Below, in pieces: positions 11,286-61,378 of a stretch of DNA of 64,000 nucleotides (position 1 is its first letter; every line of letters starts with the position of its first letter). The notes beneath the pieces were generated by a model. It searched no databases, was not told the DNA's origin, and saw only the letters and a list, made by a program, of their open reading frames with translations. Position numbers and translations under genes: made by a program. This DNA is from Pohlia nutans (Eukaryota; Streptophyta; Bryopsida; Bryales; Mniaceae): NCBI GenBank assembly GCA_022496805.1, contig CM040100.1:27557009-27621008 (forward strand), in the 5' to 3' direction.

Positions 11286-11599
11286 ACAAAAAGTAATGGA
11301 TAAAGGGTACGTGAATTGAGGGAAGACTAAAAATAAAACAAAATTAAGAATATAATAAAATAAAAAGGAAGACTAAAAACAATAAAAAAGGTTAATGTGA
11401 ATTTGATGCAGCCAAAAAATGTAAACTAATTGAAGACTAAACTGTAAATTCCCTTTTCAAATGCTCTAAAACTTATAATTTTGTAAATATTAACTACATA
11501 AGGCCTTAAAAGTGCAAAGAATAGTCAAATAATGAAAAGAAGAGGACAAAGTAGCCATTATTTGATCATTTCAAGGAAAAACTAAATTAAAAGGTTCCA

Positions 11600-12850: not shown

Positions 12851-14095
12851 AGGAGGAATTGAAACTTCGTAGCGCCCAACGACGTTCCGAGCGCACCGGT
12901 GATCCTGTTGTGCTTTAGAAGGTCTTGTTAGACATGCCCGGAGGCGAGTAGTTCTGCACTCAAAATCCACACCTCAAGGGTGCCGAGGTGTTTGGATCGC
13001 AGAAGCGTAGGCCCGATATCCCCATTGGTGCAGATGATGAGACACACCGCCCCGACACCGTCAACTTCTCTCGCCGCCGTCCCGGTAAGAGACTCTCTAG
13101 ATCTAATCCCGTAATTCTACCTACAATTGTTGAAGAGTCTTCTCTAGACGTGCAAGAAGTTCAAGAGCCTCCACTGTCCGGGCTCAATTTTCGTCGAGTC
13201 ACCGCCGTTCAAGAAACCAAGGTTGATGAGTTGGTTTGGCATATAGCCCGTGTCCCTTACAATTCTAGCAAGTCTTGTTGGACCATGCGTACAGGTACTA
13301 AAAAGAAATGCACTGCGAAGCTCGTCACCAACAATCGGAGTGTTGCTTGCCCGGCCTACTCTGGAGTTTGGGATTTTTACACAATGCAAAAACAGAAACC
13401 TATAAAGTTCTTCTTCTGTCCGGACGACATCGAGCGTTGTGTGAAGGGCTTCCGTTGGAAGTGGTTCATCCCATTTTCAGACACCCAAGGCAAGTTCCCA
13501 ATTCCTCCCGTGTGGCCTATTATGCTTGGTACTAAACTCACTTGCCCGGAGATCGTGGCCCTTGAGAATGCAGGATTCCAACTCCCTTCCAAGGAGCACG
13601 TCACTCCGACTCGATTCTTCAAAAACTCTACTCCCCTATTCGATTTGTCAAGGGTTGGAATTCTCGACAACCCCGACTACATTCCTTCCATAAGGAAATC
13701 CAAGGCTACTCGACGCTCCGGCACTGGGCCCTCGATAAAACGCAGGGAGAATGTTGGATCTGCTCGAGCCATGCACGGAACCATTTTGAAGTTGACCATG
13801 ATCCCCCACCCGGAGTTCGACTGTGTTGCAGTCCAAACCTCCTCCTACAGATGCCGTTTACCAAGTGACGGTGAGCTCTCACCCGGAGTGTACTTGCGCG
13901 GCCTTCAAAGATATGATTATCAAGTTTGGGAGCAGGCGCAATTCCTATCTAAATTGTAAACAATTCTACTATATATTCGACAAGGTTTCTAACTTAAATC
14001 CCAAAGTTAACATGTTCATACACGCCCCGACCTTTAGTTTCAACAAGGTCAAGCTCATCCTCGAAGGTGGCCTTTTGACACATTCTACCACCTAG
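12851..14095 (+). pseudogene. MULE transposase remnant, C-terminal half with SWIM finger
   Basis: The frame opens at 12851 with KEELKLRSAQRRSERTGD, matching the middle of exon 2 of the 4948-8780 gene. It has in-frame TAG codons near 12918 and 12951, then a long open stretch (12988 to about 13820) covering WHIAR, FFFCPDDIERCVKG and WPIMLGTKL, which are also conserved in the other copies. Near 13820 the frame shifts into 13823-14095, which carries the SWIM finger (CTCAAFKDM ... CKQFYYIF; the final His is replaced by Gln). The N-terminal two thirds are missing. Two stops, one frameshift and a lost zinc ligand make it inactive. Confidence 0.85.
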
Positions 14096-25687: not shown

Positions 25688-26994
25688 ATTACCAGTTCGA
25701 ACAGTTCGCGGGATTCCGAATCCAAATGCTTGCCTGGATTTGCTCATTGCGGATGTCCTAGACAACCTGTCAGTCCCCTGCATCTCAATTCCCTCTTCTA
25801 TTGTGCCAGAGTAGAATACTCCATCTGCAAATGATTTTGTGGAGTTCTTTTTTGCCTTCGTCCAAAATCATCTTGGAGACAATGCGGGAGTCCTTCTTTT
25901 TGTCCCTAAAAATCTAGCCTTAAAGAAAGACGTTTTGGCGTGGGCTTCAACATATGGATTTGTACCATACAATAATTGGTAGGGCATGAACGGACTCCGA
26001 TTCTCATCTTTCAGAGATCCTACGCGCACGGTACTTACTGCTTTTTCGTGCATTGAAATTGTATTTGTGACTTAAATTCTACCTCATTTGGCATAAAATA
26101 ATTATGTATGATTACACATTCGAAATGCATGTCCTTGTAGTCACGCTGATTCTGGATCCTCCTTTTGTTCGTAACCGTTACAAGAACACATCAGTTACAT
26201 CAAAGTTTGTCCTTCACTCTAATGAAGACAAGCGTAAGGCTGGCATTGATTTGAAAGAAGACGACCTCTTTCACAATTTTACAATTGCTAAATCCCAGCT
26301 TATGAATGGAAACTTTCTATGGCGCGGTGCTCGAGAGAAACATTCCAAATTTGTTCAGATCTTTCTTGAGGCATCCACTATTCCTGGAGACATTGTGTTT
26401 GACTATATTGCATCCACTAGTTCGTCCATCATAGCCCTCATTTTCTTTTCTTGTTACATTCGTTTTCCATGTACACATCGTTAACTGTACTTCTCATTGT
26501 ATCTTAAGATGCATTTGTTCAATTACTTTTTGAATTTCAGGTGCCTTTGTTCATGCATACCGAAGTACAAGTTGCCACCTAGTTGCAGTGGAGTATGACA
26601 CGAGAATCTTCAAAGGGGTCTTGGAAGGCTTAAAGGACCCCACTCCTGCTTTTTCCTCAGCCTTGAAAAAGAGGACTCATGCAATTACACTTCTTGACGA
26701 CGAGTGGCTGGCCTCGAAAATAAAACGACCTCGATTTTGTTAGTAAGTTAACCTTCCTCCAATGCATGACAGTCTTAGATAACATTTAAGTATTTTAATT
26801 TGTTATTAAGTTACCCTAAACCCTAAATCATAATGGGTTGACAATGTTGTAGAGGGTCAATGAGCATTGAGATCAAAAAAGTCATAGCGCAATATCAAAG
26901 TCTGGATGAGTCCTTTGCTTTACCGTGCTACATTGAGCAATTAGCAAACGCTTTTGCTTGTACGCCATCCCCGCAGCCAATTTCATCAAAATAA
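25688..26994 (+). pseudogene. DNA methyltransferase-like pseudogene (N4/N6 adenine/cytosine class fold)
   Basis: Four exon-like blocks match the intact gene at 37.8-39.4 kb: 25688-26030, 26116-26419, 26541-26741 and 26853-26994. The first carries CLDLLIADVLDNL, aligned with the motif-IV strand where DPPY is expected but absent, and GVLLFVPKN. In-frame TAG codons lie at 25812 and 25980. The second carries WRGAREKHSKFVQIF and PGDIVFDYIASTG, the motif-I region; the third CHLVAVEYD, as expected for the SAM-binding acidic strand end. The second exon's acceptor is AC rather than AG. Two stops and a lost splice site show it is dead. Block order (target motif IV, then motif I) is that of the beta-class DNA methylases. 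Confidence 0.75.
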
Positions 26995-32213: not shown

Positions 32214-33915
32214 CTAGTGTCAGCATCTCCTTGAAATAAAGGCAGGAGCAGTCTAGAAACTGGGAAATTGTGAGATGGTACTACTCAATTGTTGAAGGCG
32301 TGCCCAAATCCAACGTGACGATGCAACCTAGGGCAGGGACTGGAACCATGTCCACCTTCCTTATGCAACCTTTGTATGCTCCGGCACTGGCACAGTTGTT
32401 GGCTTGCTTGATGGATGGGCTCTTTTTGTTGCGGCGGACACTTTTGCCGTGCCGTCGCTTGGGAACTTCATCAGGGAATGCTGGAGTTGCATAGGATGAC
32501 AAGTCAACGGGGAGAGGGTGGTCTTGGAAGAGCCTTCGCGGCGATATGATTTCCCGCTGTGGAAGTCAAAAATCAGCATTCTCTAAGGCAAGTATCTCCT
32601 TGCGTGTTAGGTTAGTGCCGTTCTTGACGGGCCAGATCTCAGGGACCTCCGGGCGGGACATAACCCACTTTCTACGGGTTCCTTTGACACACCTCTCAAT
32701 GTCGTCGTTGCAGAAGAAAAATTGCATGCGGTCCTTGCAATTTTTCCTGTAGTTGTCCATCAAGCCCGTGTACGTAGGAGCAGCGGTAGATTTTCCGTCT
32801 TGTACGATTCGAGCGATGCATTTCTTCTTAGTGACAGCCTGCTACGCGAAACAAGCCTTCGCAGATGTTTTTGGCAGCCTAGCTATGTGCCACTGACTCT
32901 CGTCGCAAGCCGTTTCTTGCACGGAAGTAACGTGGTTTAGGGCTGCCGTTGGGGTGGGCTCTGGTACCTGCACTGGCACATCTAATTTCTCTAATGCTTG
33001 GGGAGAGTCTGCTAGCTCTACAGGAGAAGCATTGAGGTTTAAGACGTTGTTCCTTGCAGACCTGGTTTGGACTCGAGGACGCGAGATGCTGATCATATCA
33101 GGTCGGTGAGAGTCAAACTCCGAGCCGATGGGAACGTCTGCTTTCCGCTTCAACGACAAAAAGACTTCCTCTCCTTCGAGTTGAGGCGTTCGAGTGCAGA
33201 ACTCCTCAGCTCCCGGCATTTTCGCTAATGCTTCGTGTAGGGATTCTGAGTTCCCCGTGCGCTCTGTAGACTTCTGTGCAATCCGAAGTTTCAGTTCTTC
33301 TTTGGTAGGGTCAGTTCCAGCTCTATCCCCCTTGAGGTATTGGTAGTACGCGACGCTCTGCATGAAGGATCGGACGAAGTCATCCTCAGTAGCGACAAAA
33401 AGGTCTGACCCTCGATCACCGGATTGTTGTTTCCATTTGTTGTGGATACTTTCCGCTAAGTTGCAAGAGGACATTTCAGCCAACTCGTCCTCAATGAGGT
33501 CCTAGTATATAGAAAGCACTGCACCTTTAGAGTTTGTAGATGAAGAGAGGAAAATAAGTAATGGCAGAGACTTAGGGTTTTGGATTTAGGGTTTAGGAGC
33601 TCACCAGCTGCATGAAGCCTCCCCATTGGCGGTATCGAAAATGCCAGAAGGCAAGCCATAGGTCGAAACGTCTCAATCCATCTTCTGTTGTAGCTCTTGA
33701 GGACAGCCACCAAGCTCGGATAGCTAAGTACCTGGAATCTGCATCCGCTTGCGTTGAGGCGTTCTTGTATTGCTTCCAAAGCATGCGATGTTGGTCTTGG
33801 AGGTCAGCTCTAATGTCAGCCTTCGTGTGCATCTCCAATGATTGCACCCAATGGAAGAGACAAGTTCCTTCTCTATATGGCATTGGGATTGATGCATCTC
33901 CACAGTCCTTTTTCC
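32214..33915 (-). pseudogene. MULE transposase remnant, third copy
   Basis: Minus-strand blocks match the 4948-8780 gene. The first is a catalytic tail with CLFHW and FDLWLAFWHFRYRQWGGFM (33915-33593). An intron follows at the same position. Then come EDELAEMSSCNLAESIHNKW (33490 on), WHIARLPKTSAKACFA, FFFCNDDIERCVKGTRRKW, and IVTLDLGTPSTIE ending in a TAG. Frames change near 32840 and 32570. It stops at the start of the SWIM finger (CSCLYFKE), where the 4-kb-element fragment begins. The N-terminal half is lost where the 205-bp repeat array starts. Confidence 0.85.
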
Positions 33916-34680
33916 ACAATTTCAAGGACGCATCATATACCATTGAAAAGGTACTCTCAAGACCTTTCCAACGATATATTACACGCTCCCAGATTCCAAA
34001 AATTGCAGTCGCTACATCGAAAAGAAACTCCAGCAGAATCGAACTTGAGAATTCTCAATCTCGTCATGGCCGCTTCGCGACCCCAAAAAGAACTGCCGGT
34101 ACCGGCAGTCCTTTTTTCACAATTTCAAGGGCGCATCACATACCATTGAAAAGGTATTCTCAAGACCTTTCCAACGATATATTACACACTCGCAGAGTCC
34201 AAAAATTGCAGTTGCTACATCGAAAAGAAACTCCAGCAGAATCGAACTTGAGAATTCTCAATCTTGTCATGGCCACTTCGAGACCCCAAAAAGGACTGCC
34301 GGTACCGGCAGTCCTTTTTCCACAATTTCAAGGGCGCATAATATACCATTGGAAAGGTATTCTCAAGACCTTTCCAACGGCATATTACACGCTCCAAGAT
34401 TCCAAAAATTGCAGTCGCTACACCGAAAAGAAACTTCAGCAGAATCAAACTTCAAAAAATCTCAATCTCGTCATGGCCGCTTCAAGACCCCAAAAAGGAC
34501 TGCCGGTACCGGCAGTGCTTTTTCAACAATTTCAAGGGCGCATAATGTACCATTGGAAAGGTATTCTCAAAACCTTTTCAATGGTATATTACACGCTCCA
34601 AGATTCCAAAAATTGCAGTCGCTACACTGAAAAGTAACTTCAGCAGAATCGATCTTGAGAATTCTCAATCTCGTCGTATT
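33905..34680. repeat. About 205-bp tandem repeat, four units, each with a hairpin and a KpnI palindrome
   Basis: Units near 33905, 34105, 34310 and 34515 carry ACTGCCGGTACCGGCAGT (missing from the first), then ATTTCAAGGGCGCATAATA and the long hairpin with CCATTGGAAAGG / CCTTTCCAACG arms, then ATTGCAGTCGCTACA. The open frame at 33612-34637 is a translation of this array. Confidence 0.9.
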
Positions 34681-37850: not shown

Positions 37851-39374
37851 TGTTTGGGGGTGAACTCTGAGCTCATACTTGCGGGTGAGATTGTTCAGTT
37901 TTTATCCAAGGTGATTACATCTCACATTTTCCTGGTTTTTTTTTAGTTTTCTTGAGGTTCTTCTTTATCCTCTAGTTTGTCACTTTGTGTAATACTAGAT
38001 CATTTCCATTCTCATGCAGGTTAGTGCATCTAGGGAATACTACTTTGATGGTAAGCTTCTACAGAAATCAAGGATTGATTTGCTAATTGCAGAGTACCCA
38101 GACCGGCTCAGGGTCCCCGGTGTTTCTGACCCTCCTTCTCAAATTCCACATTGGAATGAGTACGTTGACAATATTCTCAAGGTAACTATGGGATTTGCAT
38201 ATGCCTATCTTCATGATGGTTCATTCCTACTTTTCTATCCGGATAGTCCCATTGTGAGGAAGGAATTGATGTCGTACTTCAAGAATTACAAGATGAAGAT
38301 TGTGGATGAATGGACTATAATCAACTATCTTCATCTTGCAAACCCTCTTTATCCCACCAAAAATGTAAGATTCTTCAACTCTCTTGGTTTCCTCTATTTC
38401 ATTCTACTATTGTACTATTATTTGTATTTGAGCTACGGCATATTAACATTAAATATTCTTTGTAGACATTGAAGTTCAAGGCAGTTCTTATGGTCCGTGA
38501 TGTCCCATCTATTGCGGCCAGGCAACCACCTCCGCTCAACATTGTGAAAGATCCATCAGTTCCTCATGTAGACTTGGCTTGTGATGACGTCCTTTTCAAC
38601 TCTGTTACATTGGAGTCACAGCTGTTGCGAAAGGACAATGGCAGACCATGGCGTGGTCCTAAAGAGAAGTCTGAAGTTCTCATGAAGCTTTTTGTGCACG
38701 GATTAACTCCAAAGGATGGTATCGTGGCAGACCTCACTGCTTCCATAGGTATTTCTTATGGCAATTTTATGGATTGTACAATTTCATTTCATTCTCAAAC
38801 TTCAATCTCATTAACATTCCATCCTCTGTTGTGAAGGTACTTCTATCCGTGCAGCCAGGGCCTGCAATTGTCACATTGTAGCTCTTGAAAGTGATTCAAA
38901 GCTATTTAACGAGGTCTTAAAACCACTCGTAGCTCCCCAAATTCGTACAACTCCACCTCCCACCACTCCAATCCAACTCAATGATGACGATGAAGACACA
39001 CTTCCTGATGAGCCCTTTGACAAAATATGTGAGTAAGTTTTATTGGTCAAGTAATGCAAATTGCAAGTACAAGTTATTACATCTACATGTGCATGATGTT
39101 TTCTAATATTTGATGTCCTCTTATTTGCAGTTTGACAAGTCCGTCTCCAATAAAACGGCGCCATTTGATTCGTAAACGCGCGTTCCAGACTTTGCTCACT
39201 CCTGACAGTTCTCCTCAAGGATTGCCAGTATACGCCGAAGCATTGGCAACAGCCTTTGCCAATGCTAGCTCGGGTAGTTCCTCTAACTCTTCCACACCGC
39301 ATCGACTATATGATCCACGAGTGCTCTCATATTTCGATGTGAGTGCTATTGAATCTGATGGAGAATCAATTTGA
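37851..39374 (+). CDS. DNA methyltransferase-like protein (beta-class N4/N6 fold), DPPY motif lost
   Basis: Five exons fit, all with GT-AG borders and in phase: 37851-37910 (5' end uncertain), 38020-38364, 38466-38748, about 38837-39032 and 39131-39374, about 375 aa. Exon 2 has REYYFDGKLLQKSRIDLLIAE then YPDRL where motif IV (DPPY) should be, then GSFLLFYPDSP, the strand and loop that follow it. Exon 3 has WRGPKEKSEVLMKLFVHGL and DGIVADLTASIG; exon 4 continues TSIRAARACNCHIVALESD. This corresponds to the methylase KP-x-ELL helix, the FxGxG motif I (here TASIG) and the acidic strand end that binds SAM. Exon 5 is basic, then Ser-rich. Since DPPY is absent, I expect no methylation, though SAM or DNA binding is possible. 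No ATG opens exon 1, so the true 5' end, perhaps a ParB-like domain, may have been replaced by the repeat array. Confidence 0.7.
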
Positions 39375-40751: not shown

Positions 40752-43440
40752 CTACCTAATTGGTAGAAACTTTTTCAACTTTATGGTCTCCTCCGATATT
40801 AATTGTTCTCCAATATATCTACAAACAACGGATCTATGCTTCAGTGTTTCTATTTTTTGTGGCTCCTGCGATGCTAAAACATTGACATCCAGTTCGTATT
40901 CGTATTGCTCCTCCTCTGACTCTGATTCTTGATCGTCATCATCGACTTCTTCATTTGACTCTGGTTCCTCATTCACAAAATCAGCACTTACAAGCTCATT
41001 CTCTCTGTCGCTGTTGGATACGCCAGTAACATCTTTTGGTACTAAACCCTCAACTTCTTCTCTCTCAATTTCACCATCTCTGCTACCACCTGGAGCTGGC
41101 CCACCTTTATAAACGACAAGGGTTGATCTTGGCTCCATTACTTAAATTAGACCCCAGCGCTTGTTGATTCTATCTTCGATGAAAAAAACTTGCTCACAAT
41201 CTTCTGGGTACATAAATGGTTCATGTGTTGGTAAGTATGAAGGCAGGGTAGTTCTGGTCTTCACACGTAGGAAACCACATTCATCCTGTACTAAATTTGG
41301 AGATGCCTTGCGGGTTGACTTGCTATCAAACCACTTTCCCTTCAATAGGGTTACTTAGAAAGAGGTGAAATGAACTTGAACTATATTTTCTATGCGCCCA
41401 AAATATCGTGTCGATGTACCTTCGTCACCATTTGAAGTATTGTCATGAAAATGTGCACTAATTCCTATAAAAGGCCACAAAAGCCAATGTTAGAGACAAA
41501 TTTTTAAATCCCTACTACATACTATTATCCCCTAATGGTCTGTTTAAAGTTTTTAGGGTTTAGTAATGTTAATTTTTTTTTCTTACTTACCTTTGATTTT
41601 AGATATTTTTGTTCACAACACCATTTAAAAGTAGCTTTCTCACTTTATTCTTATGATAAACTTCGTAAATATTTATAATCTTTTTCCCGAAGGTTGTTTA
41701 CGGTTTTAGTTTCAAGTTCTCTTCCTACTGTACCGGTCTACATTCCAAAGATGTTAACTATTATGGTGTGATATTTGACTTGCGCAGAATCCAGTAATTT
41801 GACTCCAAGCACACATGTGAGTACGTTTACGGATTTGGGGTAAATTGAATGTCGTTATCAACATTGCAATCAAATTCCATCCATTTCAGTAGTACTGGTC
41901 CTATCAAAACTACGGACAAAAAGATTTGATAATCAAACACATTGTATACTCTAACTATGTATAATAAAATTATCTTAATGCATGAATTTGGGCAGGTTTA
42001 TGTCATCTCCGTCCAATTCTGGCCTAGTTGTCATACTAGACTGTCGTAGGCTTTCTTTATTCAAATCCAGGCCGCATAGTTGTCATACTAGACTGCCATA
42101 TGCTTTTTATATTCAAATCCAGGCCGCAGCATATAAGGCAAGGCTAATTAAAACTTTTGAGCTCTGCATCTACACAGTCACTGTAGAAACTATAATGGAA
42201 TGTGGGTGGGGCCTCTAGATTAGACTACTTTACCAGTGTGCTTTTTGCTTAAAGAATAATAAAAACAAATCAAATAACAAACGTAAGGATAAGACATTGA
42301 AACTTATCAGAGTCTTGAATGTGTACTCGTGTTCACTGTTTCCTTTGCTTGTATGCTGAAAATTTACCCTCAACCCACATATGGGTGAAAAATCGCAACT
42401 TTTGATGAGGCCCTATTGCTAGATGGTATTCGCGGTCAGATATATTAATTCCCATGCCTATGAGTGCTTGGATTTGAGCTAGTACCCACTCTTTGAATTC
42501 AGGAAGATTCTCCAAATCTTGGCCGTCATATGTAGCTCTCCAGTGGGCCATTGCTGGGTCATTTCTAAGAACAAAACTGTGGACTTGGTGTAGAAATACC
42601 CGCCCAAGAGGGTCTCGATCCAACCTTCATACTTTATGGGATTTAGGCAATAACGACCCTGTAAGTTTGGGACCATCACCTAAATGCCATAGTTGTGGTG
42701 ACTCCGGAGATAATCGGGTGGTGTACTCTGTGAGGTAGTGCATTCCTTCAAAAATGACATATCCTTCAGCCATGGATCCCTCTGGACGTGCCATTTGTCT
42801 CACCCAGCCTTTCATGACTTTCATGTAACGCTCTAAATAGTACATCCACCGATAATGGATGGGACCGGCTAATTCCACCTCCTCGAGTAGATGCACGATC
42901 AGATGTGGTTGAATGTCAAAAAAACTAGGTGGTAAATGTTGCTCCATCAGACATACTAGCTCTGCCGCTTCATCCACCATACTAGGCACTGTTGCCTTTA
43001 CTATCTCTTTGGAACTCAACCACCGGAAAAATGCGCCAAGTCGGTAGATGATTTCTCTAATTTCTTCTGTCAAAAAACCTCTAATTGCTATAGGCAATAA
43101 ATCGTGCAACAGATTGTGGTAATCATGTGTCTTCATTCCAGATATTTTGTTCTCAGGGAACTTATACTAGAAGGAAGACCCATACCCACGAGGTGTTTTA
43201 ATACTTTTCAAAATATCAATTACCTCCTCAAAGTCAGCTTTAGATAACATCCACGGTGCGGCTGCTGAGGTGTAAATGGAATTGCCCTTTGCATCCATTC
43301 CAGACCGCTTTGCATGCAAATGTAGCATGATGCCCATGGCGCCCATTTCTAGCCTTTGCTCCACTGAATTTCCTTTTCTGCCCTTTGCATTAGTAATAGT
43401 CTCAATGTGCATGGGATGTAAGAGATGAGGTATGAGGTGC
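40752..43440 (-). pseudogene. CACTA (En/Spm) TNP2-type transposase remnant with DUF4218/DUF4216
   Basis: The block 43412-43167 ends LKSIKTPRGYGSSF then TAG. It continues in frame as GMKTHDYHNLLHDLLPIAIR and PPSFFDIQPHLIVHLLEEVE, and RWMYYLERYMKVMKGWVRQ, the DUF4218 signature of plant CACTA proteins (to 42627). After a frameshift, 42623-42333 gives the downstream TNP2 region (RPLGRVFLHQV-like, PEFKEWVLAQI). At 41345-41142 there is a DUF4216-like block (WFDSKS ... EQVFFIEDRINKRWGLI), then a stop and an acidic tail to 40752. The DDE core upstream is missing. Stops, a frameshift and truncation make it inactive. Confidence 0.85.
41990..42130. repeat. 48-bp direct repeat, two copies
   Basis: GTTGTCATACTAGACTG and TATTCAAATCCAGGCCGCA recur at 42029 and 42077. 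The repeat falls in the gap between the DUF4218 and DUF4216 blocks, possibly an intron. Confidence 0.75.
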
Positions 43441-48844: not shown

Positions 48845-50743
48845 TTGAGTCTGACTATCAATACGTTGCACACGAAGCAATTCTCAAAATCGATCACTGG
48901 GGCCGAATCTCTTGAAGAGAGATTGCCCCTTCTGGTCAAGGGCGCCTTGGAGTCCATTTCAGGTCCAAGGCCGTTGCAGATGATTGATCCATCCCAGATC
49001 AACGTTGCTCAATTGATGCTGACGAACCCAACAGCTACGTCAGCTGACAGTGGCGCTGCAATTCGCTCGGTGCCTTCCCGGTCGGCAACGCAAACATCAA
49101 CTCACGGGAACCCTCCATCTCCAGGTCCCGCCTGTAGAGGTGATCGCAGCGACGTCGATATGGAAGAAGAAATCACTCCAGCGCCACCAGTGAACATGGA
49201 CGTCGACCAGCCCGGGGACGGCGAAGGCCTAGAGACTACTGGGAGTCCAGTCACTGGTTCACTACCAGGTTCACCTCGATGAACGATTTAATTCTTCATT
49301 TAGCTCGAGCCGAGTTAAACTTCCTTTCGTGTGATATCCTGTAGAGTCTTTTTAAGCACTGACAATGACATTGACATCAGACATTTTGTAATTGTAAATC
49401 TCTACTGCAGAGACTCTAATTAATACATAATTGCCTTCTTACCGAACATTCTCTTTTGCATATGCCCAACGCGCAGGCACTCGCCATGTTCCCTTTGTGC
49501 ACCACGATCATCCGTCTGCTGCTTTGAGTTTGGCACCTGCGTCTAGTCCTGACCGTGTGCCCGCTGATGCTGAACAACCGCAAGTGAATTCTGCAGTAGA
49601 AAAAATGCATAGACTTTCGGGGTCTCCTGATCCGGAAGGTGCTCAAGGGACATTCCCTGAAACCGGTACCGATGAGCCGGACACTGATATCCTAGATGAT
49701 GTCCTCCTCGAGGTCCATATACCTAATCCGGCTACAGTCCATCAAGAGGCTCGGTCTTCACCAATAAGCACTTCGTCGATTCATGTAAGTCGTTCGAGTT
49801 CCTTGATTTTGTTTCCAGTGTTTCGAGGTCCTTTCATTACTGCTTCGATTTAGTTGCCTCGGTCTCGTAAATGTGACATCACAGCCCAAATAACTGTCTG
49901 CACATTTGTCTGTCCGCATCTGAACAGGGGAGAGTTCGTCCTCTCAGTCCAGTAGGTGCAGCAGAGGAGCTCGTAGGTCTTCCGTTCAGGTCCATGGTGA
50001 ATGGCAGGTGGCTCAATATCATCCTGGACCTGAATGGGATACTCTGTGTCTGTAAGGAAAGGAGATACCTGCCCAAGGAGCAACTCTACAACGATCTATC
50101 GCAACCTCACTTTGCCGTGCTTCCAGCGGTGGTGGGTCCTAAGGCCGTCTACGTTCGGCCACACTGTCAGCCGTTCCTCCGGGAGTTAGCGTTAATCGCA
50201 TACATCTCCGTATGGAGCTCAATGGCCAATTCCACCACTAGATTGATTTGCGAGTACTTATTCCATGGATTAGAGCCACCGCTTCATATCTTTGGTCAGG
50301 AATTCTGCGAGGTCATCAAGTGCAGGGGCGTCCGAGGGAAGATAACAAATTTCAAAGTGAAGGGAACCAACAAGGATTTGTTTCTGAAACCCCTTGACAA
50401 GTTGTTTGATCTTACAAATTCCAAATTCAGTAGTATCAATACAGTCATAGTGGACGACAGCCCTGAGAAGCATGTTCTCAATGAACCAGAGAACGTTGTT
50501 CTCCCTCAGACGTGGTTGGAAGGCAATGATGGTGCCAGTGATAGATTTCTAGTGGACGATCTGATGCCTTGGATTCAGCGCCTACATAACAGCAAGGGGC
50601 AGGGGTTGTTGACCTTTCAGAGGAATGATAACATTGGACGTCGGATACTGATCGAAGAGGCGGATACGAGTGAATACGATGAAGTGGTCAATGCGATAGA
50701 CAGTTCAAAGAACATAGCTAATGAACTTCCAAGTCGCCGATGA
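48845..50743 (+). CDS. FCP1/SCP-like HAD phosphatase family protein, altered DxDx motif (copy 1)
   Basis: Well-supported exons are 49477-49784 (acceptor GCGCAG, donor GTAAGT) and 49928-50743 (acceptor GAACAG, stop TGA). An upstream frame at 48845-49282 is a likely earlier exon with a Ser/Pro/Asp-rich, disordered sequence. The last exon holds the whole FCP1-homology domain. It has LNIILDLNGILCVC (nucleophile Asp kept, second Asp of DxDx replaced by Asn), YVRPHCQPFLREL, VWSSMANST, and NTVIVDDSPEKHVLNEPEN, the conserved second Asp pair and Asn. Plant FCP1-like proteins with DLNG at this site are known, but their activity is uncertain. The family acts on Ser/Thr phosphates, classically of the Pol II CTD. 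A homologous gene lies inverted at 54.2-55.5 kb. Confidence 0.78.
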
Positions 50744-51011
50744 TCCTAGAATTCAGACATTCAAATCTTGTGTAGCCTATTTTCCCTTACATATCCCGAC
50801 TCCTACTTCTATTTGTATTCCAAAAACTTTGTACGAACCTGTTTATGATGTGCTTGTCACTCCACAGAATTTGGTTAGTTGGTCCTTGATTGTACATGAT
50901 TCTTTACCTCGAGTCGAGCTGATTAGTATATTTGTCGCTTGGTTTCACGCGCCTTCGTGTTTAGCGAGTGGGGTCCTCGCTGAAGTACGCTCTAACGGTT
51001 GTTGCTCTTCA

Positions 51012-52007
51012 GGAGTTGCCCAGTTGTTCTATGCCAGTGGCTGACTCCCAGCACCAATGTGTTGCGTCCGTTGATTCAATTATGGACTATGGACAATACG
51101 CAATATCGCAGAGCGGTTTGGGTCATATCATGTATTCAGCCGCTACCGCGCAGTCGAAAATGGACTTTTCTACGTTGCCAATTGAAGATGGTGTTGTAAA
51201 TAGCCCTCTGGACGGAGGGAAGCGTCCACGTCCTATCAGCTCCCCTTCCCCACTGAAGTCGCGCACCCGCCCATCATCGCTAGAGTTTCGTTCTGAAGTG
51301 GAGAAGTCCACTCAAAGGAAGTTATACGATGATTTCAATTGTGGTCTTCCGTCATCCGAGGTACCCGGACCACCTACATCGAAGCTTCACGATGATTCTG
51401 AGATGCAGGAGGACCTCATTATGATAGAGGTACGTGTGAAGTTAACTACTCATGCATTTCGTGCATCTCATGCTTTTATTGTGATGGGATATTAGCATAT
51501 ACTCATACATCTATCACTTGGATGTAGTCTGCAGGTGGGGCTTCCAAGTTGAGAACCAGTGTATCTGACTCTCGGGCTGTGAATCCTACACCATGTTCCG
51601 CATCTTCCCCATTGGGCCCTAAACCGTTGCCACGCCCTCGGGCATCTTCAATACCTAATCGGCAATCTACGAAACCTATCGGGAAATCAACAGTCCCGTT
51701 TGCACCTACCCTACCCCGTGTTGATGTGCCTCTTCGTGCACCCTTGCGTACTCGACACCCGTCATTGAATGAGGGTCTTCGACAGACTCAGTCACACGAC
51801 GGATTCAGAAGAAGATCCGCTCCTGTTCGAAATGAGTGGGAGGAACGGATGTTGGCGCAAAGAAGGCGAGAGATTGCGCAACAACGATGTTCGATGTTTA
51901 CCTTCCATAGTCGTGAGATGTTGAAGGCAGTAGCTGAACTTCATTTGAAGGCAGATGCTAAACTGAATGCCGATCGCATTCATGATGACGCTGGGCATTC
52001 TATTTGA
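51012..52007 (+). CDS. Unknown protein paired with the FCP1-like gene (copy 1)
   Basis: Two exons, about 51012-51429 (acceptor CTCTTCAG, donor GTACGT) and 51528-52007. The first carries SVDSIMDYGQYAI and KMDFSTLPIEDGVV. The second carries VDVPLRAPLRTRHPSLNEGLR, then an Arg/Gln-rich helix (ERMLAQRRREIAQQRC). All these blocks recur in the gene at 53.2-53.9 kb, so they are under some constraint. The protein looks disordered with a basic C-terminal helix. I recognise no domain. It follows the FCP1-like gene by about 270 bp on the same strand in both copies, which suggests a linked unit. An initiating upstream exon is not located. Confidence 0.55.
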
Positions 52008-53214
52008 AATTACTATTCGGACTTACGAGGAGCATACAGATTATGCACCACTACAAAGAGAGAGACACTTGATATAGTCGAGGTCTTGAGATTTTGAAGG
52101 CGTTAGAAGAGCTCAAGAGTAGATCACATGCTTTAGGGTAGTCTACTGTCGTGTACAGATCCGTAGTCTAGATGTGTATTTTGGACCTAATTGCACGCTT
52201 TACAGTAGCTCCTACTTATAACGTAGAGCAGTTCTTTATAAATTGTATATTGCTTTATGCGGATATTATAAATAAACATATATTACGTTACATTTCTATG
52301 ACGAGTACCATAATTCTATTGCAAAGTAACTTGTTCACTCGATTTTAGTTGCATAATGGAATCAATTTCATGGATAATGTGACTCATCGGAACTCTCATT
52401 TTCAGAGTATACTCTCATTTTAATGAATATGATGTTTAAATATTAATTTAAATTTGTGGACATTAAACATCATAAAAATCCTTGGATGACTTTAATGCTT
52501 TTATGCATTAAATTAATATTATTTACAATATTTACAACCTCTCTATAGTTTTGGTTCAAAAATTTGTATTTACTTTTTAGGATTTTTACTTGATTCGGTG
52601 CATTATAATACAACGAAGTCTATACTTGAATTTTCTACCAAAGGTGTAAATTGCAATAAAGCAAGGTGGAGTTAATTATTATCATACGTGCATCTAAATT
52701 TAGAAATTTTTGCTACACCTTGGTGATCACTTCCGAACAGGAATGTGCATTAAAACACTAAATTTTAAAATATTCCCTAAAAATACATAGTGGAGTAGAT
52801 ACTAGACTTGGCTAACTCCATTTTGTTAGTTTAACTCAAATAACATAATATTCATTAAAATGAGAGAATTCCAGAATAATGAGAGTCCAAAAAGTGTTAA
52901 CCCAACCCAAATCGGAGCACTAACCATTCCATATATAAGCTGAAACAATAGAAAATGGACACACTGAAGATCAAATTGAGTACATTTAATACAAGTAGGC
53001 AATAAAAGATTAAAGAAGTGACATCTATTTATAGTAAGTATAAAATGAATATTCATTTTTTGTGTTTTTGTATTGCGGGACTGTAATTGAATCATGATAA
53101 TGTCTCATAATGCGAGGAAAAAGAATGGGCGCAGCGCAAAATCCTATATAAAAACATCAGCTCCACGTTTTTTATAAGTCTGTATAGTAATCGCAAATAA
53201 AATGCCTAGCGGTA
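52008..53214. other. AT-rich spacer between the inverted gene pairs
   Basis: No gene. At 52080-52140 a duplicate of the partner-gene C-terminal exon can be read (LEILKALEELKSRSHA), matching the last residues of copy 2 better than those of copy 1. The remainder is AT-rich. Confidence 0.5.
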
Positions 53215-53925
53215 TCATGAATGTGATCGGCTCTTAAGTTCAGCTAGTGCCTTCAAGATCGCAGGACCACGAGTATAGCCGGTCCACTTCGAACATCGTT
53301 GTTTCGCAATCTCTCGCCTCTGTTGCTGCAGCATTCGTTGCTCCCACGCATCTCGATAAGGAGCGGAGCTCCTTCTGGGTAGAAGTCCGTCGTGTGACTG
53401 AGTCTCTCGAAGACCCTCATTCAATGAAGGGTGACGAGTACGCAAGGGCGCACGAGGAGGCACATCAATACGGGCTTGAATTAGAGGAGGCGGGTTTGAT
53501 GACAGCATCGCAGGGGGTTTTCGGATAGCATTTAAAGTAGCAGAGAACTTGCATCTATTCGGCATGTCGGAACCCTGCAATACACTGAAATGTATAAGAA
53601 AATCGCAAGGCAAGTCCTTGGAAGAGAAATAATAGTGCGAGCAAGCGAGACGTAGAGGGTTCCCGTGACCCCAGAGGAGAAGGAGAGCGCACGGACAGAG
53701 GACGCGGCCCACCGTTGGGGGGGCTTGTCACTACACCATCCTCAATTGGCCTGGTGGAAAAGTCCATCGTTGACTGGGCCGTAGCTGCCGAGCACATGAA
53801 GTTTCCTTTACTGAGTATAGCATACTGGCCGTAGTCCATGATAGAGTCGACTGACGCTGTGCATTGGAGGTCAGTACCGTGGACCGGAATCGCAGTGGCA
53901 TACCTTGCCTGAAGAGAATTAGTGA
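53215..53925 (-). CDS. Unknown protein paired with the FCP1-like gene (copy 2)
   Basis: Mirror copy of the 51.0-52.0 kb gene. The first exon (about 53925-53650, after CTCTTCAG) carries ASVDSIMDYGQYAI and TMDFSTRPIEDGVVTSP. The second (53574-53215, after ATTGCAG) carries IDVPPRAPLRTRHPSLNEGL and ERQ-rich helix MLQQQRREIAKQRC, ending KALAELKSRSHS. The donor of exon 1 is not clear, and Leu/Phe-rich readthrough past it suggests intron. It lacks the middle segment (QRKLYDDFNCG) seen in copy 1. Confidence 0.55.
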
Positions 53926-54218
53926 CGAGGTCAAATCCCAGTAGCGAATTGCAACGAAACAAAATATTCTAAGCACTAGAGAAGAGCAGAACATGATGCT
54001 AATTGAACAAGAAAGCGATGAAGACATAACAAATCGAAGGGACAACATTCATAAAATTCATCTCGCAAAGTACTCAAGCGGAAATGATGTGAAGGGCAAG
54101 ATATATTACAATTAGAAGGACATATACAGATCAGTCAAGGCGACCAAAAACTAATATGTAGTCTGGAACGGCTACATCACTAGGAAAAGAGAGTCCAGCT
54201 ATACAACTGTACAATCAA

Positions 54219-55465
54219 CTAGGACCTAGGCAAACTACGGGATGCGTGTACAGCATCTATAAGGGCGTTGTACTGTCGACGGTCGGGCTCGTCGCAGAGC
54301 ATACGTCGCCCAATATTGTTGTTCATTCGGAATGATGACAACCCTGGGCCAGGACTACGATGGAGACGTCGAAACCATGGAAGTAGAACATCATGGAGAA
54401 AATTGTTACTCGCACCGTCCCCGACGTATGACCAAGAGTCAGGGAGAATTACATTTTGGGGCTCATTCAGAATGTGCTTAATAGGGCTATCGTCCACTAC
54501 AATGGTGTTTGCAGACGTGAATCTACCACCATATCCTGTGAACAACTTGACGAGATTCTTAAGGAACAAGTCCTTATCAGTGCCAGGCACTTTGAACGAG
54601 GACACCCTGCCATGCCTATCCCTACACTTGAGGGTCTCGCACGAGTCTTGGCCAAGTACAAGGGAAGGGAGCTGGATGCCACGGAAAAGATATCGAACTA
54701 CCAATTCAGTGGTAGACTTCCTCATAGAACTCCAGACGGTAACGTCAGCGATCATGCTCAGCTCCCGGACGAACGAGAAGCAGAGGGGGCGCACGTATAC
54801 TGCTTTGGGCCCCACTACAGCCGGGAGAACGGCTGAGTGCGGCGCATTGTAATCGTTAAAGGGCGGGGACTTGGATTTCCAATCCTCGCAGACGCAGAGG
54901 ATTCCATTCAGGTCCAGCACGACAGTGAGCCATTTTTTGGGCGCTCTAGGCAGTGGCAAACGAATGACCGCCTCCGAAGAACCTCCACGAGAAAGAGGAG
55001 GACCGGATTCCTAGCGACAACGGGCAGACAAATGTGCAGCCAATTATGATCCTGAACTGGCACATTTCGGACGACATCGCAAAAAAACAGTAAACGATCG
55101 AGGCGAGCACGAAGACAAGCAACCAGAAGATCCAGCCATCACTAAGAAACTAACGAAACGTACCTGAAGGCCGGAGGACTCGATTGACTTCGCACTGGCC
55201 ACAGGTGTGACCGCCGAAGGTGCACCTCCGGCGACGTTTAGAGGGCGGGAGGTCGAAGTACGTGTAGGCTCATCCAATCGCGCACTCTCCTTAAGTCTAC
55301 CAGGTGGCACAAGTGTTTGAGAGGACGGAGGGATGACAGGACAAGGGGGGACCCTAGGCGAGGGCGGACTGGGCTCCAAGGACGAACTGTCCGGAGTAGA
55401 TTGTGGTAGGGGATGCATAGCAGAAGGCAATTGAACATGAGACACATTGTGGGCACGGATGGAGC
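54219..55465 (-). CDS. FCP1/SCP-like HAD phosphatase family protein, altered DxDx motif (copy 2)
   Basis: Exons 55465-55164 (acceptor ATCGCAG, donor GTACGT) and 55010-54219 (acceptor TCGCTAG). The FCP1-homology domain is complete: LTVVLDLNGILCVC, AVLPAVVGPKAVYVRP, VWSSMRKST, NTIVVDDSPIKHILNEPQN. As in copy 1, Asn replaces the second catalytic Asp, and the substitution is therefore ancestral to both. The Pro/Ser-rich upstream exon matches copy 1 at its borders. It is followed on the same strand by the partner gene. An earlier exon between 55470 and 55690 is not resolved. Confidence 0.78.
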
Positions 55466-55699
55466 CTGCGATGACAATAGATGAACAGAAATTCCGAGTG
55501 AGGAGTATATAAATTAAAATATGGGCCAAAAATTTGAAGTACAAAAAATGTTGCTGGAATAAATGTCCTAAGTGCACTTCTCAACAAGGAGTTGAGTTTC
55601 CTAAATATTACAGCCGTCTATACAAAAATACTACAGAGTGCAACCTATGATACAAATCAACTTGAGTCGAGCTAAAACTATACAAATGACATCGAGTGA

Positions 55700-58600
55700 T
55701 TATTGAGAACCACCTGCTGCAGCGTCAGTGTCGAGCGAGGCGGCAGTGTCCGCATTTGCACTACCAGCAGCTCCGCTGAAACCTAGACTGTCGTTGGCAT
55801 CATCAGTAGCGGTCGATGACACTTGCCGGGGAGCCGGTGGAGCGGACGCTGGAGCAGGTCGAGGCGGAGGAGGCGGAGTGACAGGCGAGGCCGCAGGTGG
55901 AGCAGAACCTCCGCTGATGTCTGATCCCGACTGCTGATTACCAAGCAGCAGAGTTTGAGGAGTCGACGGCGGGGGGGTCAATGCGGCGAGAGGACCCGGC
56001 ATAAAGCCCGTCATTAATGTCTGCAATGTCTGCTGCATGACATCCTGTTGCATTTGCTGTTGCCGTTGCTGTAACAGGATCGCCTCCATCTGCGCCTTAT
56101 GCTGATCCATCATGAACTTCTGAAACTCGTGCTGGTCCTTCCTCGACTCCGCGTGCATCTTCAGATTAAGCTCCGCGTTCGCCGTGGTCGTCGTAGCGAG
56201 ACCTTGAAGCAAGGCAGCCATCGACTTGATAAGTTCAGTGACAGACCCACGCTTCTTCTTCTTCGACTTCGGCGTGGAGGAAGGAGACGCAAGAGGTTGG
56301 CCCGAGGACGCAGATGATCCGGGCGCATCAGATTTGCGGGGCATTTCCAAAGGAGGAGGAGTGAAATCTTCATCGTTCAAATCGTCACCCTCGTCATCGG
56401 AAGAGGAGTCCTCGTCGTCCGTGTCATCCCTCTTCCTCTTCGAAGGACTACCCCACGCATCACTGGCTTTCCTTTTTGATGAAGACGGCGCAGGTCGTGC
56501 ACTAGGGGTACTCCGATTTCCCTCGACCTGCACTGGGTATCCGTCCGCGAGGAAGTCTGCCTTGTCGAGGTCCAAGGCCTCGTTCGCGATGGCAGTCCAG
56601 AATACCGAAGTGTTATTCGACCCGATAGCGTAGATGTTTACGCAACTCATCCGCACAAATAGCATGACAGTCATCAAGTAAGTTAGAGAACCATACAGTT
56701 CACGGACAAATAATGTTCAGATCGAGCGGACCTAAACTGGGACGGCCGGAGAGGATACTACTTTCAGGTCGATCCGAGCTAAAGTACAGCAGCGATTCCT
56801 AGACTTGGACACATATCGGTTAGCTTGACTCGAGCTGAAATTCAATGCGGGTCAAGTTGGACACATCAGACCAGAGCAGAACAGTAATTAAGGAGTTTAG
56901 GTCGACCCGAGCTAAAATGTTGTAACGCTAACACTACATAAGATTAGCTCGACACGAGCTGAAGAGCATGTGTCCAAGTGCTGGACTACGTACCAAAGCA
57001 GCACAGGTGAGCTTGGTTCCCGTGTAGACGGCGAAGACATGCGTCCCCGGCATGCAGAACATCCTCACGACCCACAAGTACAACTCCATTCTGAGCTCCG
57101 CATTGTACATCCGGTACAGCAGCTCATCGTACGCCCTGGGCTTCGTATAGACCGCCGTGTCTGGTGCGTAGAAGGCTTCGGGGATCGCGACGTGCGGAAT
57201 ATTGGTCTTCTGCAAGAAGACGAGGAGAACTTTTGCACGCGCCTTCTTATGGTTCGGGAGAAAGTCGCCCAGACGCTCATTCTTCGCCGGATAGTAGTCG
57301 GCGAATTCCATCTTGTATCTGCCGAGGATGTCGTCGTTCTCCGCGAAATGCACAGCCTGGGACTGCTCAATCGCATCGGCGCAGATAAATAGCCAGACAG
57401 GTACTTCATCGAAGTCCGGTTCACGTCTCCTTTAGAGGGACGACATGAAGTCGAAGAAGTACGGCATCCCCGTACTCGAAACTTCTTTGTCCTCCACCCC
57501 GGGGAGGTATCTGAAATCGATGACCCCCAGGCTCAAGCCCGTAGGCGTGTCGGCTGTCCATGCGCCCTCGCCCCAGTCGGCGTGTTCGTTGTGCTGCCGG
57601 TCGTATGGCCGGTAGTGAGCTTCTCCGTCCGGTTTTCTGAATTTTTTTTTCTTCTCAAGGAAGACTTTGAAGAATTTGGCAGCGTAGGGAGATATTTCCG
57701 CGGTTTTCTTATTCTTGCTCCTGATTTGCTTGGCCTCCTTGAAGTATTGCTCTCCTGGCCGCTCGAGGAGTACATTCATGGTCGCCCTCGTGACGTTGTA
57801 CTCCTCCTTGAACTGCCTCCACTTCTCGGGCACGAGGTCCCCCGCCGGATTGAAGAGTCCGAGATCACGATTGATACTGTGCAATTCTTTCTTCACAAGG
57901 TGCTTCCGCTTCCTCCTCTCCACCCACTCCTTGGTCGAATAGCACCTCTCGAGAACCGAAAAGATCGCCTTGATCGTCACCTTTGGATAACCCAAGGTCC
58001 ACTTGGGGTTCTCGACGTTCAAGATATGTCTTGCAAGCTTCGCGAGGTCCTCGTAGGTCAAATTTCCCAGCCACTTGAAGAACTCGCGAGTGAGATTTCC
58101 ACTCTCGGGATTCCAGTTGGTCTTCGCCTTGAACTTCAACCCAGTGTCTGGATCGATAAGCTCGCCAGCACCTGCGCTTGAGATCACTTCGCTCTAGAGA
58201 TCAAACACGTCGTCCGGCGCAGTTATGAGTTTCAGCTCATTGTGGATGTCGAGAAGTACATCCGCATTACTTTTCTCGGCGTCCATCTGGGACTGCGTCA
58301 CGTCGATCATCGCGAACCGCAGTTTCATAGCATTTTGAAACTCCTGCACGGTTACATACACTATTAGCTACTATGCAATATTTAGGTCGACTCGACCTAA
58401 AGCAGCAGAGGTGTAGGAGCGCATGACTTGCATGGAGATTCAATTAGCAAGAAGTCGAACTTATGAGCATATTAGGTCGACTCGACCTAACTTGTGTTGG
58501 TATCGGTCTACTCTAAGGGGACGGACTACGGAGTGGAATTCAAAAAACGGAAGCATAGCAGAAAGCAATTTAGGTCGAGTCGAGCTGAACATTACGTTGA

Positions 58601-60059
58601 ACTTCTCTCTGTTCTTCTGGGCGTCCCTCGTCCTCAGGGCCTGATTGACCCTTCCCACCTCCACTGCTTCCTTGGGGTTCTTAGGGCGACCGAGGTTTAT
58701 CCACACTTGCCGCGCTCCCAATATGTTTGTGGCCCACGACGGCTTGATGACGCTGAAGTGGTTCACGCGGTTGTAGTAGGCGGATATGGAACGAAGAGTT
58801 TCATTATTCTTCGTCCAAACTACAAAGCAGTTCCAGTGCGCGAACTCTTTGATGTCGTCTGCGGCCATTCTTTCCTCGCGCATCATGTAACTTGCTTTGA
58901 TGTTGTGCTGCCCGTTGATAAGCCAGAACTTTCCATGTTTGATGGAGTCCCAGTCCTTCGGCCGCTCTTCCAGGTCGCAAGGCATCACGCACAGAGTCTG
59001 CTTGGTGCTCTTGTCGGACATGTTGAGGAGGAAGGTCATTATCTTCTTCGCCAGACCCGGCTCGTACGAGCGGATGTTCATGTGCGGAGGGGCTTCGACT
59101 AGTTACTCGATGGGGAGCGAGAATTTTGTCTCCACGCCGAACAGGAACACATCAGTGCATGACGACCAGAACGTCCTGTACGCCTCGGTCGAGCGTGCGT
59201 AGTCAGAAGTCTTGTTCACCTCCATGGACTCCGGCAATGAGGTCAGGGCGGACGCCAAGCTCCCCTCGTTGATGGCTGCAGGCGCCGTTTTATCTGCAGT
59301 TGGCCTCTTCTTGGAGCTGGATCCTAGGTGACTCTGGCGTAGTGCCGTCGAAGGTGTCTGAGGGGTGTTCAACTTGCGTTTGCCACGGCTCTGTTGCGGT
59401 CTAGGCGAATTTGTGCCCATGGATCCCGCACTCCCATGGCTTCGGTTATCCAGGGACACAGATTGAGGTGTCATCAATGTTCTCTGCATGTCCAGCTTCG
59501 CTTTCATAACGTCGAAATTTTGGATCAGCTTCCGGATCTTCGAGCATAGCCTTGCCCCCTGCAGTGGCTGTCCGTTGCTGCCCTCAAAGAATTTCTTGTC
59601 GAATTGCTCCTCCAGCTCCTTCATCATACCACTGAACTTTGTTGTTTCCAGGGAGGCTATTAAGGGGCTCAGGTTGAAAGGAATGAGAGCGGAGTCGAAT
59701 GTGAGCGTGAAATTGTACTGCTGGTGCTTCGGGAATTCGTTGTTTGTAGTGACGCAATGCACGTGTACTATGGATTCATTACCCGCGTTCATGTCTTTCA
59801 CCTTCTCCTGTAATGACAGCGGCAGGAATGCAGGCGCATTCTTGTTCTTCGTTATGAAGTTTAAGTCACGTGTCATCGGAATCATGTTAAGACTCCAGAA
59901 CTCTACCAAATCCTGGTCTACCATGTCCCAGTATTCACCAAAGTTTGCGAGGTCGTCGCCTTCGGCATCGTCCGCGGTTGGCTGCTCCGCAGCTCTCTTG
60001 TAGTAGCACTCCAGGTGTTTTACTTCTATTGCCTTTGGTGTCCGCATCTCTTGCGCCAT
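55700..60059 (-). pseudogene. ParB-like / degenerate DNA-methyltransferase fusion, three exons, three in-frame stops
   Basis: Exon 1 runs 60059-58596 and exon 2 58343-56994, both in phase with GT-AG borders. Exon 3 ends at 55700, and its acceptor is unresolved. About 1,250 residues. The N-terminal 310 residues are unrecognised. Near 319 a ParB-like domain starts (SLPIE, stop, LVEAPPHMNIRSYEP) and reaches WLINGQHNIKA near 380, the DGxHR box with Asn for Arg. Exon 2 holds a methylase-like fold: GVIDFRYLPG in the DPPY place (near 766), PVWLFICAD, KARAKVLLVF, and AVYTGTKLTCAAL as motif I (near 925). Exon 3 continues FWTAIANEALDLDK, then an NLS-like KRK / acidic tract, a Gln-rich coiled coil and a Pro/Ala tail. 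The stops (TAA 59103, TAG 58194, TAA 57432) each fit a C-to-T change in CAA or CAG. Family fusions occur in phages, but introns and tail mark this one as eukaryotic. Confidence 0.68.
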
Positions 60060-61378
60060 TTCTGTGCACAGAGTGTACATACAAGTGTTTAGGTCGATGC
60101 GAGCTAAAGTGCTTACTACACATAGCATGCCAATCAATGAGTCGCAGTAACCTGCATATAGAATGTCATGTACATTTTTAGGTCGACCCGAGCTAAGCGT
60201 ACTTGCTCTTTGTTATCTTACATGCATGTGTTTAGGTCGATACGAGCTAATGTGTACACGCAGGTATTTAGGTCGGTACGAGCTAAAGTGCGTTAGAAAC
60301 AGAGTTGCATGCGTCCTGAAGGTTATCGTTAGTATTCATGGCTCGGATTCAAGAATGTGGTTGTAAATATCACAAGTATCATACCTACAGTTGTGACGAC
60401 TACGGTAAGGTAGAATGTCATACACTTTTAGGTCGATTCGAGCTAAAGAGCAACTATCGTTAAACATGTTTGGATTGCATGATTTTCGAATATATGAGTT
60501 ACTTCTTGGGTTAATCCGTTTAATGGGACTCTATGTAGTACATATTAGGTCGAGTCGAGCTGAGTATTATGTCGTGTAAGTTCTTTATTTCTCATTCGCT
60601 CTTGTACTACGTTGGTGATATTTAAGCGTAGCCCATCCGTTTAGGTCGAATCGACCTAAACTGCTGTAATCGATTCATCAAATTTCTCTGAAGGCCATTT
60701 AGAGCAATTTAGCTCGGCTCGATCTGAATGGTCACAGCTCATTCATAGACGGGTTGCGTAATTTAGGTCGAGTTGAGCTGAAGCACACGCAGTGTTTAGA
60801 TTTATTTAGGTCAATTTTTATTGCATAGCAGAACTTTCTTATCGCTACCGACCTAAACTACTGTATTTGGAGCTTCGTCCTGGTTTCAATTGCCTCCTTC
60901 ATTTTCTCAGTAGGCCATTCAGTGCAGTTTAGATCGACTCGACCTGAATTTCCGCATCTTTTGGACGACGATTTCTGTCATTTAGGTCGACTCGAGCTGA
61001 ATCGTACGCAGTTTGTAGGTTAAATTGGGCAAATGTTTATTGTATGATGGGGTAATTTAGGTCGATGCGACCTGAATTTACACATGGTACATTTTGAGTG
61101 CTATACTATTGCAACCTACAGCCGGTCTATTTTATCGTTAATTGCGAATTTAGGTCAAGTCGACCTAAATTGCTGGGACGAGATAGTTCTTGTACCTTAT
61201 TTTTCCTTGTTGTTATCGTTTGCATTGATTATTTTAGGTCGGGTCGAGCTGAATGGACTGCAATTTAGGTCGATTCGAGCTGATATGTGAAATTTATTGG
61301 TGAATTTTAGGTCGGGTCGATCTAAATTGCCTTTTCTCGGCAGAGTTTCTCTGTCCATTTACATCGGGTCGACCTAAA
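56763..61378. repeat. Dispersed 21-bp palindromes, core TTAGGTCGANTCGACCTAA
   Basis: At least 23 copies, mostly spaced 30-150 bp apart in the denser parts. Examples are 56763, 56819, 56896, 56943, 58381, 58471, 58569, 60088, 60177, 60231, 60267, 60427, 60544, 60640, 60708, 60762, 60928, 60981, 61056, 61149, 61233, 61264, 61306 and 61358. The copies at 58381 and 60640 are perfect palindromes around one central base. They occur in the two introns and the 5' flank of the ParB/methylase gene, and none is seen in its exons. Related sites lie near 49299, 50907 and 55659. Confidence 0.92.

Follow-up and report, generated by a model that had tools for sequence, protein, structure and literature searches.

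The ParB-methylase gene and its relatives

We analysed a 64-kb stretch of the genome of the moss Pohlia nutans (contig CM040100.1; hereafter the window), which carries a minus-strand gene for a protein with a predicted ParB-type fold followed by a predicted methylase-like fold, arrays of a 21-bp palindrome around and inside this gene, and, downstream of it, a NIF-type gene. The gene consists of three exons and two phase-0 introns, with an ATG at 60059 (Table 1; the exon ends were counted by hand from the window sequence). A preliminary description had given the coordinates, strand and frame correctly (minus strand, 60059 to 55700), and the INGQHNIKA box, the basic/acidic tract and the Gln-rich tail that it listed are all present in the translated frame; the palindrome arrays and the NIF gene were absent from it. 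The donor of intron 2 reads GTACGT, and its acceptor is GG in the window, as compared to AG in two related contigs, L001 and L002. With this GG and three in-frame stops, the window copy is a decayed member of its family, and the masking of stops that had been proposed for the translated exons was necessary because of these three codons. Reassigned stop codons would be an alternative, but as the relatives read through the same positions, decay explains the stops more simply.

A search with the joined exons identified 77 homologous proteins at E <= 1e-3, the best of which is 80% identical across 67% of the query, and a search with an alignment as query identified 189 homologues, of which 120 were listed. 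The 77 include five relatives from Physcomitrium patens (P0003, P0009, P0023, P0030 and P0060) and one from Ceratodon purpureus (P0004), so the streptophyte homologues that were to be looked for exist in mosses, while the remaining matches are mostly of single-exon size and come from unnamed contigs. The number of homologues in both searches, several long moss proteins among them, indicates that the frame in the window is genuine coding sequence. A genome scan added L001 (1-7388) and L002 (1-6212), two contigs with moss-related, intron-bearing genes that are filed under a cyanobacterial metagenome-assembled genome (AVDCRST_MAG81, uncultured Synechococcales cyanobacterium). The relatives with a species name are moss proteins, and both contigs are therefore probably misbinned plant DNA that contaminates a public assembly. 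Their genes show the same exon-intron-exon-intron-exon layout as the window gene, whose two in-phase introns had been noted previously. Comparison of L001 with L002 gave Nei-Gojobori dN/dS values of 0.137 for exon 1, 0.122 for exon 2 and 0.249 for exon 3, and these relatives are therefore under purifying selection. Taken with the predicted folds, we consider it highly probable that the window gene belongs to a streptophyte family that combines a ParB-type with a methylase-like fold.

Table 1. Genes, introns and palindromes at the locus, in positions of the window.
Feature	Position	Strand	Remarks
Upstream palindrome array	60088..61378		17 copies of TTYAGSTCGANTCGASCTRAA, <= 3 mismatches
Exon 1	58596..60059	-	N-terminal domain, Ser-rich linker, ParB-like N domain; in-frame TAA at 59103-59105
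Intron 1	58344..58595	-	Phase 0, GT..AG; 3 palindromes, at 58381, 58471 and 58569
Exon 2	56994..58343	-	Helical middle region, then beta-class methylase-like domain; in-frame stops at 58194-58196 and 57432-57434
Intron 2	56651..56993	-	Phase 0; 5 palindromes, at 56716, 56763, 56819, 56896 and 56943
Exon 3	55700..56650	-	NIYAIGSNN.. stretch completing the methylase-like domain, basic/acidic tract, Gln-rich tail
Palindrome directly downstream of exon 3	55656..55676		3 mismatches
NIF/FCP1-like phosphatase exon	54219..54959	-	PF03031, E 1.6e-13
Probable 3' part of NIF gene	53175..54218	-	ORFs 53555-53962 and 53215-53712, with similar stretches behind the second NIF exon
Palindrome downstream of second NIF exon	50903..50923		
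Second NIF-like exon	49994..50743	+	PF03031, E 1.8e-13; tail to tail with the first NIF exon, 54% identity
Palindrome upstream of second NIF exon	49299..49319		

Predicted folds and lost motifs

The predicted structures contain a beta-class DNA-methylase domain and, at the N-terminus, a ParB fold whose best match in BFVD is a Caudovirales ParB/Sulfiredoxin protein. This supports the ParB-like lead-in that had been proposed and fits the claimed order of motif IV before motif I. Profile searches with the two models suggested at the same time, PF02195 and PF01555, gave no match above cut-off, whereas the predicted folds are of the ParB and beta-class methylase types. In our reading of the sequence, INGQHNIKA occupies the position of box II and YYNRVNHF that of box III. 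The histidine of box II (NGQHS type) is invariant in 23/23 aligned rows and is followed by a serine in nearly all of them; a family-wide count of the box II pattern had this histidine fixed in the pattern and is not an independent test. A 2025 survey of ParB folds reports that an arginine in this box is required for nucleotide binding (PMC12704722). Since an invariant histidine replaces this arginine, CTP binding by the domain appears doubtful or altered. The helical middle region encoded by exon 2 contains a basic, conserved WVERRKRK motif and may be a DNA-binding part.

The methylase-like domain in exon 2 spans from VIDFR, the presumed motif IV, to FAVYTGTK at motif I. Motifs were counted in 145 proteins, partials included, which represent the 77 matches of the joined-exon search and 68 new ones from the alignment query. 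The catalytic (D/N/S)PP(Y/F/W) motif is present in 0/145 of these proteins, and 102/145 carry D(F/L/C/I)R, which we place at motif IV judging by its position in the alignment. Likewise, the SAM-binding form of motif I, D..F.G.G, occurs in 0/86 proteins with a readable motif I. The sequences thus suggest a catalytically dead domain whose catalytic motifs have been lost. Retained activity despite the altered motifs, with the palindromes as methylation targets, would agree with the intact predicted fold and with the F-x-G-x-K like form that is kept at motif I in 82/86 proteins, but given the complete loss of the DPPY-type motif and of the canonical motif I, we regard such activity as very improbable. 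Pairwise identities to the beta-class N6-adenine methylases CcrM, M.RsrI and M.BceJIV are 9-12%, and unlike these enzymes the plant proteins have neither DPPY nor the motif I aspartate. PF01555 gave no match above cut-off (best E 0.029, in 1/50 members), and sequence searches of the PDB gave a best E-value of 0.28 with P0003; with alignment A2 the best was 0.38, to an arginine methyltransferase that aligns around motif I.

Palindrome arrays and their proposed recognition

The palindrome TTYAGSTCGANTCGASCTRAA is present in 28 copies in the window at <= 3 mismatches, as compared to 0.01 copies on average, and at most 1, in dinucleotide shuffles. The stricter form TTTAGGTCGANTCGACCTAAA occurs 20 times, and the core TCGANTCGA 10 times, nine of these in the ParB-methylase gene region and one beside the second NIF exon. 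Seventeen of the 28 sites are located upstream of the gene, three in intron 1, five in intron 2, one just downstream and two around the second NIF exon, which puts 26/28 in non-coding parts of the ParB-methylase gene region; 0/28 overlap any of the five exons tested. L001 and L002 contain eight palindromes each, mostly with AGC arms, in introns, upstream and downstream according to our gene models. The 15-bp flanks of the window copies appear by eye to be unrelated, so the sites are no simple tandem repeat, and one 144-bp upstream stretch is duplicated at 73%. In the viral_contigs dataset, the palindrome was found at one place in a single contig (L003), which encodes no relative of the protein (best tblastn E 0.27) and which we take to be a chance occurrence.

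The palindromes could alternatively act as RNA hairpins, in splicing or as small RNA, or be tiny mobile palindromes that have gathered in the introns. Some sites lie near splice sites, and in L001 and L002 the arms pair completely, over 10 positions, in 10/16 sites, with two sites extending by a further 6 and 7 pairs. However, only 2/28 sites in the window pair at all 10 positions, the others at 6-9, with extensions of 0-2 pairs, and 13/44 sites hold an unpairable combination at one position, with G and C at the same position of both arms, which breaks the hairpin and keeps two good half-sites. The poor pairing in the window and the unpairable positions disfavour the hairpin, and with 17/28 window sites upstream of the gene and flanks that look unrelated, both variants of this explanation are improbable.

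To follow the palindrome in other relatives, we used the tails of open reading frames that read through past the exon 2 donor, 45 of which could be taken from the 145 proteins. Five-residue words that encode the palindrome are present in 19/45 tails, as compared to 0.47 in shuffled tails (at most 3 in 1000 shuffles) and to 19/1939 windows of 25 residues in exon bodies, several of which are themselves ends of reading frames. A perfect palindrome with any three-base arm around the core is encoded in 20/45 tails (1.0 on average and at most 5 in 500 shuffles), and 18 of these 20 have AGC, TCG or TCT arms; TCG arms are read in two frames, as RRVDD and as SSSRR or SSNRR, the latter of which fits TCT as well. 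In addition, a (D/E)S(K/R)I word recurs after the exon 2 donor in the divergent relatives P0149, P0156, P0157 and P0185, and such tails perhaps represent another palindrome type. In a quickly built tree of 86 proteins, of which 29 were labelled by arm type, including four undecoded “DSKI” tails, the labels require 7 changes as compared to 15.2 when shuffled (0/200 as low), a test in which near copies favour clustering and for which the tree carries a long-branch warning. AGC and AGG arms are found in the large clade (59 rows) and TCG and DSKI in the other (27 rows), and the AGC and AGG labels are clustered on their own (0/500 shuffles as low).

These patterns lead us to propose a ParB-type protein with a catalytically dead methylase domain, which would bind parS-like arrays at its own locus. 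We assign this reading a probability of about 0.55; that the palindromes are the protein's own sites is, as a separate claim, an even chance. Binding to self-encoded sites is favoured by the ParB-type domain, the basic WVERRKRK stretch, the restriction of the arrays, within the window, to its own locus or a NIF gene, and the clustering of arm types by lineage. From arrays that are observed and a fold that is predicted, we infer a ParB-like protein that binds DNA at specific sequences and would, as a dimer, recognise TTYAGSTCGANTCGASCTRAA and occupy the arrays upstream of its own gene, in both introns and around the NIF gene. The bound arrays might then control or mark the locus, as KorB and ParB do from operator and parS sites, and the dead methylase domain might read DNA or hold partners instead of methylating, with the downstream NIF protein, which carries a DLNG motif, as a possible partner. 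The ParB relative KorB acts from OB operators located upstream of promoters, some near and some far, and is able to silence at a distance (PMC11790492). More tentatively, and at somewhat less than even odds, mosses and related plants would have a nuclear ParB-parS-like self-recognition system, made up of a ParB-type clamp fused to a dead DNA methylase, site arrays in the promoter and introns of its gene and a NIF-type partner, in which site and protein co-diverge by lineage.

Several observations weigh against this proposal. At the profile level, PF02195 matches neither five pieces of the window gene (E <= 1) nor 50 members of the family (E <= 0.5), and no Pfam or NCBIfam model matches the gene or its relatives above its curated cut-off; the lowest Pfam E-value, 3.6e-4 to Tugs, is under the cut-off of that model, and the best PHROGs E-value is 0.016 (PHROGs has no cut-off). 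Foldseek against the PDB gave no match below E 1e-3, the nucleotide-binding arginines of box II are absent from 23/23 aligned rows, and two-domain ParB/Noc alignments extend to residue 555-564 with an rmsd of 12-17 beyond the N domain. The 50 listed structure matches of the exon 2 model are methylases, and ParB is not among them. With regard to the sites, a G arm occurs on one side only in the window, which a symmetric dimer does not explain, and in relatives other than L001 and L002 the palindromes are deduced from the peptides of the read-through tails, 25/45 of which contain no perfect palindrome word. The arm labels were set by patterns written after the tails had been read and leave 16/45 tails unlabelled, and TCG (16/500 as low) and DSKI (73/500) are weakly clustered when taken alone.

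A host factor or the NIF protein could instead bind the sites, or the sites could be regulatory elements unrelated to the ParB-like protein. Two sites flank the second NIF exon in a window without a second ParB-methylase copy, and the matches listed for the exon 2 model do not show the DNA-binding part of the ParB-like protein on its own, which would both be in line with this explanation. On the other hand, the arm types follow the clades of the ParB-methylase protein, whose predicted fold is that of a family which binds operator or parS sites (PMC11790492), and we consider binding by another factor to be quite unlikely.

NIF genes, origin and other features of the window

The NIF exon downstream of the ParB-methylase gene matches PF03031 with 51.0 bits (cut-off 21.8). 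A NIF exon follows the family gene in the window, in L001 and in Physcomitrium P0023, which are all three with readable downstream sequence, while L002 ends too early to show the downstream gene; the C-terminal end of P0023 reads into the start of the NIF domain. The catalytic motif of NIF/FCP1-like phosphatases is DxDx(T/V). Both NIF copies in the window, P0023 and L001 have DLNGIL, in which the second Asp is replaced by Asn. The two NIF genes in the window, 49994-52025 (+) and 53175-54959 (-), are placed tail to tail as an inverted pair with 3' ends that are 76% identical; a second ParB-methylase copy is absent from the 64 kb.

Phages and prophages carry fusions of a ParB-CTPase fold with an N6_N4 methyltransferase, as reported in the ParB survey (PMC12704722). 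Like these, the plant protein joins a ParB-type to a beta-class DNA-methylase domain, but its gene contains introns, encodes an extra N-terminal domain and disordered tails, has a degenerate methylase without Pfam-level similarity, and is followed by a NIF gene. Since phages carry such fusions, capture from a phage-like source is plausible by analogy. The preliminary description had inferred that a module from a mobile element entered the plant genome and gained introns; the predicted ParB and methylase folds in an intron-bearing gene support this in part, with an origin from a mobile element no more than plausible. A tblastn search with P0003 against phage and plasmid records gave no match at E <= 1. 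A protein scan of viral_contigs gave 297 pattern matches with no relative among them. If the ParB-methylase and NIF genes formed an autonomous mobile element that used the palindromes for recombination or maintenance, this would account for near-identical Physcomitrium proteins (P0009, P0023 and P0060 are 92% identical to P0003), for a divergent-clade cluster, P0075, with 700 member sequences, for the decayed copy in the window and for the phage-like architecture. The near-identical proteins and the large cluster hint at multiplication or at many assemblies, and the latter may by itself explain the count of 700. Moreover, the scanned parts of the unit, which do not cover every open reading frame, contain no recognisable transposase or recombinase, no repeat links its two sides in a self-comparison at E 1e-5, which would miss short terminal repeats, and L001 and L002 are under purifying selection. 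We consider an autonomous element rather unlikely.

As compared to KorB of plasmid RK2 and Noc, the protein lacks the box II arginines and has a eukaryotic host, and there is no ParA or KorA partner among the open reading frames scanned, beyond which none was looked for. The arm spacing of the palindrome also differs from that of KorB/Noc sites. A bacterial-type N4-cytosine methylase in a eukaryote is known from bdelloid rotifers, where N4CMT serves 4mC marking (PMC8885841); the moss-type protein differs in lacking the catalytic motifs and in having a ParB-type domain ahead of the methylase. The survey cited above covers ParB folds in bacteria, archaea, phages and eukaryotes and gives sulfiredoxin as the commonest form in eukaryotes; its main text has 0 matches to words beginning with plant, moss, alga or Physcomitri (PMC12704722). 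Within the open-licence literature, mostly the top-ranked matches and including parts of this survey, we found no plant ParB-methylase fusion or cognate palindromes. If the proposal is true, it would represent a eukaryotic use of the ParB-pseudo-methylase architecture with a built-in target site, and it is testable in Physcomitrium, a species with long predicted family proteins.

A separate ParB-like exon at 1665-2678 (-), FVYDGNHRLLAWKE, is matched by 39 homologues. Four proteins scanned from this search have no Pfam match, and one of them (P0102) matches the methylase half instead. Two groups of methylase-like exons, 26104-26481 (+) and 38014-38831 (+), are 35% identical over part of their length, contain DPPF or motif-I-like stretches (GDIVFDYIAS, DGIVADLTASIG) and perhaps represent a second, degenerate methylase family. 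A chimeric query of the 1665-2678 exon and the methylase-like exons at 38 kb gave 43 matches, 39 to the ParB part, four to the methylase part and none to both, but the matches are 241-359 residues long, which is single-exon size, so that a fusion could escape this test.

Other perfect palindromes are found inside repeats (11071-12596 and 34092-34516), namely TCCCACGGATCCGTGGGA in four copies, with a variant at 11609, and ACTGCCGGTACCGGCAGT in three. Mutually similar open reading frames resembling transposon proteins are located at 4948-8780 (+), 12988-13959 (+) and 32842-33483 (-); the first and the last are linked by a DNA match between 7911-8125 and 32892-32678, and the frame at 7296-8780 has a weak SWIM zinc finger (E 0.008, below cut-off). 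Finally, DUF4218, a domain known from CACTA-type transposons, is encoded at 42627-43136 (-) with an E-value of 2.2e-30.

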